DNA of 32,378 nucleotides, taken from NCBI GenBank assembly GCA_030704665.1, contig JAUYID010000009.1:224454-256831 (forward strand), written 5' to 3'. Below the pieces are notes generated by a model. That model worked only from the letters and a program-made list of their open reading frames with translations, ran no database searches and was not told the DNA's origin. Origin of the DNA: a bacterium (GTDB taxonomy: Bacteria; Patescibacteriota; Microgenomatia; Woykebacterales; RBG-16-39-9b). Every line of letters starts with the position of its first letter. Within the stretch, counting starts at the first letter, position 1. Positions 8,950-12,628 of this stretch are shown here, one piece after another. A program made the position numbers and the translations under genes.

Positions 8950-10053
8950 ATGAAAATTGGTATTGATGCTTCCAGAATCTCAATTGACGAAAAGTCAGGC
9001 ACAGAAAACTATAGTTTAAACCTGATCAAGGCTTTGGCCAAGATTGATTCCAAAAATCACTATCAACTTTACTTCAACCATGACCCAAAGTTTTTTGAGC
9101 TACCAGAAACAAACTTTGCGAGCAAAATCATACCGGCCCGAAAGTTCTGGACTCAAGGACGTCTGGCTGCAGAGCTCGTCCTAAATCCAGTTGACCTGCT
9201 TTTTGTTCCAGCCCATACGATCCCAATCCTACGTCGCCCGGGCTTAAAAACCGTGGTCACGATCCACGACCTTGGCGCTGAGTATTTAGCCGCCTACCAC
9301 AAGTTTCCCGATCGGATTTATTTAAATTGGTCGACTGCTTTTGTAGCCAACTATGCGAGCCACATTATTGCCGTCTCAGAAGCGACGAAAAAAGATTTAG
9401 TCAGAGAATTTAAAGTAAAAGAGGAACGTATTAGTGTCGTTTATGAGGGTGTTGATCGGAATTTTTTTAAAAAATCTCAACCAGAGCAAGTAGACCAAGT
9501 GCGAAAAAAATATGGTTTGAAAAAACCTTATTTTCTTTTCGTCGGTACGATTCAGCCTAGAAAAAATCTTTTCAACCTTATCCAAGCTTTTTCTGAGGCC
9601 AGGGTTGAGGCGGACTTGGTCATAGCTGGAAAGCCAGGCTGGTTGTTTAAAGAAATTTATGAAGCTCCAAAAAAATTTGGAATTGAAGAGAAGGTTAAAT
9701 TCCTTGGTTTTACCCCAACAGAGGACTTACCGGCGCTTTATTCTGGTGCACTAAGCTTTGTCTTTCCATCACTCTACGAAGGCTTTGGTTTGCCACTTTT
9801 GGAGGCGATGGCCTGTGCTTGTCCGGTTCTAACGTCCAACCAGTCAAGCTTACCTGAAGTAGTCGGCAGGGCTGGTTTACTTGTTAATCCTAGGTCAAGC
9901 AAAGAAATTGCCCAGGCAATAGAAAAGCTCTTCAAAGACAAGCACTTGCGAGAGTCTTTGAGTCAAAAAGGTCAAGAAAGAACCCAAAATTTTTCTTGGG
10001 AAAAAACCGCCCGAGAAACGCTTGCAGTCCTTGAGAAAGTAGGGGAGTCGTGA
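8950..10053 (+). CDS. GT4-family glycosyltransferase
   Basis: GT-B fold retaining glycosyltransferase using an activated sugar. N-terminal domain begins MKIGIDASR with GTENYSLNL; the interdomain segment is VVYEGVDRNFF; the donor-binding domain has FLFVGTIQPRKNL and the EX7E motif in FPSLYEGFGLPLLEAMACACPVLTS. The length of 367 residues is normal and there is no membrane segment, so it probably works at the inner face of the membrane on a lipid carrier or polymer. The stop overlaps the next gene's GTG by four bases (GTGA), so they are translationally coupled and probably act on the same glycan. The promoter is bracketed by an inverted repeat (8877-8932), suggesting regulation. Confidence 0.93.
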   Translation: MKIGIDASRISIDEKSGTENYSLNLIKALAKIDSKNHYQLYFNHDPKFFELPETNFASKIIPARKFWTQGRLAAELVLNPVDLLFVPAHTIPILRRPGLKTVVTIHDLGAEYLAAYHKFPDRIYLNWSTAFVANYASHIIAVSEATKKDLVREFKVKEERISVVYEGVDRNFFKKSQPEQVDQVRKKYGLKKPYFLFVGTIQPRKNLFNLIQAFSEARVEADLVIAGKPGWLFKEIYEAPKKFGIEEKVKFLGFTPTEDLPALYSGALSFVFPSLYEGFGLPLLEAMACACPVLTSNQSSLPEVVGRAGLLVNPRSSKEIAQAIEKLFKDKHLRESLSQKGQERTQNFSWEKTARETLAVLEKVGES

Positions 10054-10784
10054 AAAAAGAAGTTTTGGGGGTAGAAGTGAGTGACATCAGTCAAGCCGAA
10101 GCTTTGGTTCAGGTCAAGGACTTGATTGATCGAGGTGAGAAGGGCTATATTGTCACCCCCAATCCAGAAATGATTTTGGAGGCAAGGGTGGATAGTGAGT
10201 TTAGGAACAATTTAAATTCTGCTTTTCTCTCCCTTCCCGACGGCTTCTATTTGTTTCAGGCGGCAAAACTTCTTGGCAAAAATTTGCGTGAGGTGATCAC
10301 CGGGGTAGACTTTACTTATTCTTTGGCCGCTCTAGCGGAAGAACACGGTTACAGGGTTTTTCTTTTAGGAGGTAAAGAAGGTGTAGCCCAAAAAGCAAAA
10401 GAAAACCTGCAAAAACTTTTTCCTAGGATCAACATTGTTGGCGCTTTTTCTGGAGGATTGCTAGAGAAAAATGAAGAAGAAATTCGGCAAAATGTTCAGA
10501 AAGAATCAATTGATATCTTAGTAGTTGCCTTTGGATATAAGAAACAAGAAGCGTGGATTGTTAGGAATTTGCCAAAGTTAGATACAAAAGTCGCGATTGG
10601 AGTGGGTGGAGCTTTGGACTATATTTCCGGAGAAGTAAATCGTGCCCCAGTTTGGATGAGAAAGATTGGTTTGGAGTGGTTTTACCGTTTGTTACATCAG
10701 CCAATCCGGATCAAACGCCAGATTAAACTACCCCTCTTTGTTTACCTCGTTTTAAAAGAAAAATTTTCGAAAAGAGCTAATTAG
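10050..10784 (+). CDS. WecG/TagA/CpsF family glycosyltransferase (GT26)
   Basis: Membrane-associated GT26 enzymes add the second sugar (such as ManNAc or ManNAcA) to a polyprenyl-linked sugar in teichoic acid or enterobacterial antigen synthesis. Seen: YIVTPNPEMILEAR, LPDGFYLFQAAKLLG with ITGVDFTYSL, FLLGGKEGVAQKAKENL, VAFGYKKQEAWI and VGGALDYISGEVNRAPVWMRKIGLEWFYRLLHQP, all family hallmarks; the C-terminal appendage with Arg/Lys (RIKRQIKLPLF) is the usual membrane-docking region. The GTG start at 10050 overlaps the preceding stop and has AGGGGAG upstream. Length 244 is normal. Acceptor and donor cannot be told from sequence. Confidence 0.93.
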   Translation: MKKEVLGVEVSDISQAEALVQVKDLIDRGEKGYIVTPNPEMILEARVDSEFRNNLNSAFLSLPDGFYLFQAAKLLGKNLREVITGVDFTYSLAALAEEHGYRVFLLGGKEGVAQKAKENLQKLFPRINIVGAFSGGLLEKNEEEIRQNVQKESIDILVVAFGYKKQEAWIVRNLPKLDTKVAIGVGGALDYISGEVNRAPVWMRKIGLEWFYRLLHQPIRIKRQIKLPLFVYLVLKEKFSKRAN

Positions 10785-10796
10785 CAATACTTTAAC

Positions 10797-10848
10797 CAAA
10801 GGAAAAGCCCCTGTCGGGGCAACTTTTCTTTTCGGCCCCGACAGGGGC
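10797..10848 (-). terminator. Intrinsic terminator, minus strand
   Basis: A perfect 14-bp stem, GCCCCTGTCGGGGC (10807-10820) with GCCCCGACAGGGGC (10835-10848), is followed on the minus strand by TTTTCCTTT. On the plus strand no T-run follows, so it primarily ends a minus-strand transcript, although it may also stop transcription leaving the GT26 gene. Confidence 0.75.
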
Positions 10849-11271
10849 CAAGGTTCATGAGGACATTTAGTCCTTTCTCCCGTCTCGCTTCTTAAAGCGG
10901 ACGAGACGGTTCGGGCGCTGAGACCCCACCAAGTGGGCGGGGATTTATTTCTGAACCAGAGTTATTTTGACCCTGATTCGTGAGGCAGACAGAAAGACAC
11001 AACTAAACAAATTTATCTCTAAAGAGGGCTGACTAACTCGACAGTGGAGTCGAGGATTTCGGCTCTTGTAAACAGGACAGGTTGTTAAAGTGCAGCTTTA
11101 GCCAAAATCCTTATGGAGGGCAGAAGGATTTTAGGTTCAATGTTAAACTGCTGCAAGCAGCCGTGGCTAGGAGGAGCAGTTTTCTGACCCGCCATTTTGC
11201 AGGGCTCACCTCACATTAGCGGGCTAGACAGTTAATTTTCCTGGCATTAAGCACAGAGTACTAGCTGTCTA
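10797..11271 (-). ncRNA. Unidentified large structured RNA
   Basis: This gene-free stretch has a minus-strand promoter at 11278-11306 and a minus-strand terminator at its other end, giving a transcript of about 475 nt. It is dense in perfect stems (plus coordinates): 11145-11152/11175-11182 enclosing AGCC/GGCT, 11104-11112/11124-11132 (9 bp), 11037-11042/11049-11054, 10880-10887/10902-10909, and 10953-10959/10973-10979. The last has a U-G pair only if read from the minus strand, supporting that strand. I looked for the RNase P CR-I/CR-V sequences, a tmRNA tRNA-like end and tag reading frame, and the SRP tetraloop, and saw none. Family unknown. Confidence 0.55.
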
Positions 11272-11277
11272 TATCAA

Positions 11278-11306
11278 AGTATTTCACAAAATTCTTGAAC
11301 TGTCAA
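11278..11306 (-). promoter_or_regulatory. Promoter of the structured RNA
   Basis: Minus strand: consensus TTGACA (11301-11306), 17-base spacer, AATACT (11278-11283) preceded by TGA (extended -10). It fires away from the plus-strand promoter at 11340-11368. Confidence 0.55.
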
Positions 11307-11339: not shown

Positions 11340-11368
11340 TTGACCAAGCGGGGTAACTGCAATATAAT
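11340..11368 (+). promoter_or_regulatory. Promoter of the GT4 / alpha-barrel genes
   Basis: TTGACC (11340-11345), 17-base spacer, consensus TATAAT (11363-11368). The ATG at 11381 is 12 bases past the -10 and lacks an SD, indicating a five-to-six-base leader at most. Confidence 0.7.
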
Positions 11369-11380
11369 ACGACCCACTTT

Positions 11381-12628
11381 ATGAAATCAAAACTTGACCA
11401 GAGAATTGAACTTACCCAACCGAAGGTAAGGTCCATTTATCTTTCTACTTACATACCACAGAAATGTGGCATTGCTACTTATACGAAAGACCTAACCAAC
11501 GCTATCAACGTTCTTAACCCCTACAACCTTGCCGAAATCATGGCGGTTTCCGACAACGGTTATGACTACCCCTGGGAGGTCAAGTTTCGGATTAGCCAGG
11601 CAAAGAAAGAGGATTACCTTGCTGCGGCTGATTACATCAACAAATCTTCAGCTGAAATCTTTTGTCTTCAACACGAGTATGGGATTTTCGGAGGCAAAGA
11701 TGGTGAGCTAGTTTTAGAGCTCTTAAAGAGAATCAAGAAGCCGGTAGTTACTACTTTCCACACGGTTTTAAAAAGTCCTAGTCCCTCACAAAAGAAAATT
11801 CTCAAGGCAGTTGCCGCTAGATCAAATGTAGTGGTTGTCATGATCGATACTATGGTTGATAGACTGACGAGCCTTTACGATATCCCGAGCGAAAAAATTG
11901 TCGTTATTCCCCATGGCGTACCGGATATACCTTACGGGCCAACACAATTTTACAAAAAGGAATTGGGCTTGGAAAATAAATTTGTTGTTTCAGTCAACAA
12001 TTTGCTGGCTGACAACAAAGGCTTTGAGTACTTAATCGAGGCCATAGGAAAGGTTAAGGACAAAATTCCAGAAATACAAACAATTATTATTGGCGAGACA
12101 CACCCAATTGTGAAAAAGTTTGAAGGGGAAAAGTACCGCAATTTTTTGGAGAGTAAAGTGAAACAGTTGAAACTGGAAAATTACGTCAAGTTTATCAACC
12201 GTTACGTTAGTCTAGAAGAGCTACTTAGCTATTTAAGAGCAACAGATGTTTACGTCACCCCTTACCTAGACTCTCAGGCGGCTGCAAGTGGGGCTTTGTC
12301 CTATGCGGTTGGGGCGGGAAAAGCCTGTATTTCAACACCATATATTTTTGCTAAAGAGGTGCTCAAGGACGACCGTGGTGTTTTGGTTCCTTTCAAAAAC
12401 TCAGACAAAGTTGCCGCCGCCTTGTTAAAGATTTACCGTGAGCCCAAATTCCGCGCTTCCATTGAAACAAAATCTTACCAGCACGGTCGGACGATGATCT
12501 GGCCGGCAGTTGCTTTGCGTTACCTTGATCTTTACCGCCTTGTTCTTGGAGAGTCAGCTGCTGCCACAGCAAGAAGAGTGCTGACCAATATCATCAGTCC
12601 AATCTATTCTCGTGACAAACAAAACTAA
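11381..12628 (+). CDS. GT4-family glycosyltransferase, first half of a two-part enzyme
   Basis: Retaining GT-B glycosyltransferase. The N-terminus LSTYIPQKCGIATYTKDL and HEYGIFGG are typical of the CGIATFT-type GT4 group; the donor half has SVNNLLADNKGFEYLIEAI, AIGKVKDKIPEIQTIIIGE and VTPYLDSQAAASGALSYAVGAGKACISTP. The length is 415 residues with no membrane segment. The next gene overlaps it by 17 bases in another frame and encodes an alpha/alpha barrel that, from memory of this group in other bacteria, is the C-terminal half of a single fused protein. Translation probably begins close to the transcription start. Substrate unknown; a mannose- or glucose-like glycan is a guess. Confidence 0.92.
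   Translation: MKSKLDQRIELTQPKVRSIYLSTYIPQKCGIATYTKDLTNAINVLNPYNLAEIMAVSDNGYDYPWEVKFRISQAKKEDYLAAADYINKSSAEIFCLQHEYGIFGGKDGELVLELLKRIKKPVVTTFHTVLKSPSPSQKKILKAVAARSNVVVVMIDTMVDRLTSLYDIPSEKIVVIPHGVPDIPYGPTQFYKKELGLENKFVVSVNNLLADNKGFEYLIEAIGKVKDKIPEIQTIIIGETHPIVKKFEGEKYRNFLESKVKQLKLENYVKFINRYVSLEELLSYLRATDVYVTPYLDSQAAASGALSYAVGAGKACISTPYIFAKEVLKDDRGVLVPFKNSDKVAAALLKIYREPKFRASIETKSYQHGRTMIWPAVALRYLDLYRLVLGESAAATARRVLTNIISPIYSRDKQN

Follow-up and report, generated by a model that had tools for sequence, protein, structure and literature searches.

A Predicted RNA Gene between Two Glycosyltransferase Genes

The window analyzed here, a 32,378-nt stretch of DNA from a bacterium of the order Woykebacterales, contains a segment devoid of genes between two glycosyltransferase genes, which raises the question of what this segment encodes. 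The source genome (G000; 0.96 Mb) is 96% complete and consists of nine contigs. On one side of the segment lies wecG (10050–10784, plus strand), encoding a WecG/TagA/CpsF-family glycosyltransferase (PF03808, 6e-55; TIGR00696, 145 bits), and on the other lies a gene for a GT4 glycosyltransferase of the CGIATYT/CGIATFT type (11381–12628, plus strand; PF00534, 2e-19). Upstream of the locus, mreB is followed by another GT4 gene. The original prediction placed an unidentified large structured RNA on the minus strand of the segment and described it as gene-free. Indeed, no open reading frame of at least 60 amino acids is present between the end of wecG (10784) and the start of the GT4 gene (11381).

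The minus strand from 11306 to 10797 has the layout of a complete RNA gene, consisting of a promoter, a predicted transcript, and a 14-bp terminator. The promoter (11278–11306, minus strand) contains the −35 box TTGACA (11306–11301), a 17-nt spacer, and the extended −10 element TG-A-AATACT (hexamer 11283–11278). It was recovered by a promoter scan with 10 of 12 matches, in agreement with the earlier assignment; the region holds 4 promoter-like sites, compared with 0.8 ± 1.0 in shuffled sequences. With the transcript start set 7 nt past the −10 box, the positions of the promoter and terminator give a predicted transcript of ~475 nt (10797–11271, minus strand). The terminator hairpin (10807–10848, minus strand) also corresponds to the one proposed, as its 14-nt arms (10835–10848 and 10807–10820) are 100% complementary and are accompanied by a T-rich tail. 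The RNA gene is convergent with wecG and divergent from the CGIATFT-type GT4 gene. Since the terminator is symmetrical, it can also stop plus-strand wecG transcripts. The GT4 gene has its own promoter, TTGACC-17-TATAAT (11340–11368, plus strand; promoter scan), which ends 12 nt ahead of the ATG, so that the GT4 mRNA would be almost leaderless.

Inverted repeats of 8–12 nt are located between the promoter and the terminator. Most of the perfect stems listed previously for this stretch are not conserved. One of them, 10953–10959/10973–10979, reads GAAUCAG/CUGGUUC on the minus strand, and its U-G wobble pair is limited to that strand, as had been noted. When folding was compared with that of shuffled sequences, z values of −6.0 (minus) and −5.0 (plus) were obtained with the terminator included, and −4.0 (minus) and −2.9 (plus) with the terminator left out. 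Because both strands fold better than expected by chance, stem density alone could not choose between them, and the RNA was assigned to the minus strand on the basis of the promoter, the terminator tail, and the homologues described below. Sequence analysis thus establishes the minus strand as the carrier of a predicted non-coding RNA gene that stands alone, equipped with a strong σ70-type promoter and a terminator of its own.

Homologues within the Order

Homologues were searched for by BLAST, promoter pattern, gene neighborhood, and covariance model, and of ten genomes sampled from the order, nine, from nine genera and two families, contained the RNA gene. A BLAST search with the whole region against 59 relatives gave a single significant match, a 40-nt promoter segment (88% identical) in G001, which belongs to another genus of the same family; this match occupies the corresponding position, 3′ of wecG, and reads towards it. 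The promoter pattern added G002 and G006 from among 374 genomes of the class, in which a control pattern with 15 unspecified bases in place of 14 gave 3 chance matches, and G005 was added via its wecG neighborhood. In 84,980 genomes, the only patescibacterial match to the exact promoter pattern was G001. The five sequences (G000, G001, G002, G005, and G006, each from a different genus) share a single strand, termed strand B, and a hairpin, termed hairpin C, at near-constant spacing. A covariance model built from these five and run on the 374 class genomes matched three more, G007 (5e-9), G008 (1e-7), and G003 (7e-5), and a model scan of the wecG locus of G004 gave the ninth member (2e-4, 25 bits), with promoter and terminator present. 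None of these four belonged to the model-building set. The matches in G003, G004, and G008 fall between wecG and a CGIATFT/CGIGTYT-type GT4 gene, and that in G007 adjoins such a gene. The suggestion that homologues would be found next to CGIATFT-type GT4 genes was thus borne out, since at least five members adjoin that gene. The tenth genome (G009, 88% complete) has no match to the RNA and likewise none to wecG.

In the class outside the order, the covariance model gave no convincing match among the 374 genomes. Candidates in G186, G264, G116, G173, G203, G039, G330, and G268 (<27 bits) either lack the core hairpin or lie inside rRNA. As the remaining matches in the class are at chance level, the family is known here from one order only. 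No BLAST match was detected in phages and plasmids, and the promoter pattern had no match in IMG/VR. IMG/VR matches to strand B alone were rejected as chance, having model scores of 17–19 bits and an unmatched hairpin.

All nine members have a perfect TTGACA, a spacer of 17–18 nt, TGn ahead of the −10 box, a −10 box of the form xAxxxT, and a terminator. Nine near-consensus extended −10 promoters are what would be expected for abundant stable RNAs. The predicted transcripts are ~188 (G007), 202, 218, 268, 289, 373, 473, 475 (G000), and 684 nt (G008) long, a 3.6-fold spread. Four of the shorter members start with GUGUUACCCC, and the same four carry (A/U)CGCCGGA or AUGCCGGA ahead of the terminator. 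The terminator arms are near-palindromic in five members, so that two tandem hairpins could form in place of one. The loops of the arms are mutually complementary in the window (10807–10848) and in homologues G002, G003, G004, and G006; the terminator can therefore adopt a single long hairpin or a tandem pair of hairpins whose loops kiss.

A Conserved Core of 66 Nucleotides

Conservation is concentrated in a 66-nt core (window 11093–11026), in which strand B is followed by hairpin C. Strand B (11075–11093, minus strand; GCACUUUAACAACCUGUCC) was aligned across the nine genera and has the consensus GYACnYUnAmAAyYUGyCC. No consistent pairing partner of strand B was found inside the RNA, and in full-length folds its unpairedness is inconsistent, ranging from the 3rd to the 97th percentile. 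Hairpin C (11026–11065, minus strand), supported by covariation, comprises an outer helix (11065–11059/11032–11026), an internal loop formed by AAUC (11058–11055) and UUAG (11036–11033), which is AAAC/UUAG in most relatives, and an inner helix (11054–11049/11042–11037) closed by a loop (11048–11043).

Covariation among homologues, named in the original prediction as a means of checking the structure, was observed in this hairpin. In the five founding sequences, two-sided changes occur in 8 of the 13 pairs, and the covariation score is 0.46, compared with 0.06–0.19 for slid partners; 0 of 500 shuffles reach 0.46. Register in that alignment was maintained by manual trimming of the loops and by one N placed in the G006 loop, with the paired bases unaltered. 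In the nine sequences, compensatory changes were found in 11 of the 13 pairs, with 26 cells changed on both sides and a score of 0.56 (slid controls, 0.04–0.16), which again is reached by 0 of 500 shuffles. Fitting to the model biases the nine-sequence alignment towards that model; the five-sequence count is free of this bias, although the structure was still picked from the same sequences. Of the 22 near-invariant bases, 18 are unpaired and lie in strand B, the linker, and the internal loop, which suggests that they form a binding or tertiary core. Collectively, the RNA shows sequence features of a stand-alone structured non-coding RNA: its own promoter and terminator in nine of nine members, homologues, and a covarying structure in 11 of 13 pairs.

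Possible Roles of the RNA

Two alternatives would make the transcript something already familiar, an mRNA for a small protein or an unusual form of a housekeeping RNA (SRP RNA, RNase P RNA, tmRNA, or 6S). In several genomes, TGAAATACTTTG past the −35 box could mark the beginning of a peptide (MKYF...), and a portion of strand B shows variation at every third base. However, MKYF overlaps the −10 box, and in G005, where the −10 box is TACGTT, it becomes MIRF; G000 and G008 have no in-frame start codon ahead of strand B, the frame is lost between strand B and hairpin C, and the frames end differently. No conserved open reading frame common to the homologues was found, and the strong base-pair covariation also makes a coding function highly improbable. 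The housekeeping reading is scarcely credible. As the original prediction had stated, the region matches none of RNase P RNA, tmRNA, and SRP RNA. RNase P RNA (RF00010; C9:839311–839782, 69 bits) and tmRNA (RF00023; full-length match at C9:74586–74962, 105 bits) of G000 are encoded elsewhere, not at this locus, which refutes both. SRP RNA models (RF00169 and RF01854, small and large bacterial) have no match in the ten genomes of the order, so that an unrecognized SRP RNA would be conceivable; yet the M domain of Ffh (PF02978), which binds SRP RNA, was not found in these ten genomes either, eight of which are at least 90% complete, whereas all 14 controls have it. Judging from these searches, the signal recognition particle (SRP) appears to be missing from the order through loss, and with both partners unfound the RNA is not a hidden SRP RNA. 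In Rfam 15, no family matched the region at the gathering score or with a credible E-value, the window otherwise yielding only two tRNAs, and eight homologous loci likewise matched no Rfam family, 6S included. The best sub-threshold matches are at chance level and differ among the homologues. A range of 188–684 nt around a 66-nt core is also ill-suited to these families. Together, these results place the RNA in none of these known families.

Two further alternatives accept a non-coding RNA but assign it a different mode of action. A cis-regulatory RNA of the envelope-glycan genes wecG and GT4, working either by its convergent or divergent transcription or as an antisense RNA that acts locally, would fit the neighborhood: the order mreB, GT4, wecG, RNA, CGIATFT-type GT4 is kept in G000, G003, and G004 and largely in G008, and all nine RNA genes adjoin wecG and/or a CGIATFT-type GT4 gene. 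General conservation of gene order also accounts for this linkage, however, and the RNA overlaps neither gene and has its own terminator. Moreover, its orientation to wecG is reversed in G005, so that it is not bound to one cis orientation, wecG is not its neighbor in G002 and G007, and its far neighbor in G001 is a different GT4 gene. Conservation also resides in the internal core and not in the gene-facing ends, and a cis role is accordingly regarded as unlikely, if still worth considering. A trans-acting base-pairing sRNA that uses as its seed either strand B or, in hairpin C, the AAACCU/CCUCC segment appears rather more doubtful. In its favor, strand B is conserved although it lacks a partner inside the RNA, and a number of its variable positions alternate between C and U only, so that pairing to a G in the target would be preserved. 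Against this, seeds tend to be short and to lie close to an end, whereas strand B has 19 nt and sits in the middle of the molecule; moreover, the hairpin's internal loop is conserved to the same degree. Duplex scans against 16S, 23S, and tmRNA gave no shared site above the background of G-rich stretches.

The G005 inversion, the other neighbors in G001, G002, and G007, and the lack of gene overlap argue against a purely cis role; together with a partnerless strand B and no shared coding frame, they favor an RNA of the ribonucleoprotein type. The preferred explanation, to which we assign a rough probability of 0.6, is therefore a stand-alone non-coding RNA gene of a family outside Rfam, whose product would be a trans-acting, ribonucleoprotein-type RNA with a binding core and expandable arms. 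The RNA would be made constitutively and act in trans. Its 66-nt core, made up of single strand B and of hairpin C including the AAAC/UUAG loop, may adopt a compact fold and serve as the binding site for a protein or a second RNA, the flanking arms would be free to grow or shrink, and the whole would serve as a housekeeping or regulatory RNA. The lasting glycosyltransferase neighborhood might reflect a link to that pathway. It is a long shot that the RNA provides the scaffold or the catalytic portion of a novel ribonucleoprotein essential to the order, possibly one that assumed a task in cells from which the SRP appears to have been lost.

Comparison with Described RNA Families

This RNA is a new family of a known general kind, namely stand-alone structured non-coding RNAs of restricted range. 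Without an Rfam family, and with homologues in nine genera and covariation in the core hairpin, the initial view that the minus strand encodes a structured RNA of unidentified type holds. No published description of it was found in the literature, although unpublished or subscription-only work could hold one. The raiA motif, OLE, ROOL, and GOLLD RNAs resemble it in being stand-alone, intergenic, several hundred nucleotides long, structured, and restricted to certain lineages, with a function not evident from sequence. These families retain an extensive ornate fold. In contrast, the present RNA has no Rfam match, its conserved part amounts to ~66 nt, and its length varies 3.6-fold. The proposed resemblance to large ornate RNAs, of which OLE and GOLLD are examples, is only partial, as size is not conserved (~188–684 nt) and the 66-nt core alone is kept. 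The present RNA, which is presumably stable, shares with SRP RNA a hairpin with an internal loop, but the loop here is AAAC/UUAG instead of the domain IV loops and tetraloop of SRP RNA.

The family occurs, previously undescribed, in almost every sampled genome of an order of ultrasmall, genome-reduced bacteria. Since a genome of <1 Mb keeps an RNA of 200–700 nt, the RNA likely matters to the cell. Its near-invariant unpaired core offers a target for pull-down, probing, and structural work, and the covariance model provides a means to find the family in other data.

Two minor observations concern the other RNA genes of G000. The tmRNA matches its model over the full length and differs from the present RNA, which has neither tRNA-like ends nor a tag frame; it does contain GCACAUUAACAA (L032 1526–1537), the 12 nt with which strand B starts in the G008 homologue, a match of 8.7 bits (E 0.9) and thus probably due to chance. 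The RNase P RNA, ~470 nt long, scores 69 bits against an Rfam gathering score of 100 bits, indicating that it is divergent or carries insertions.
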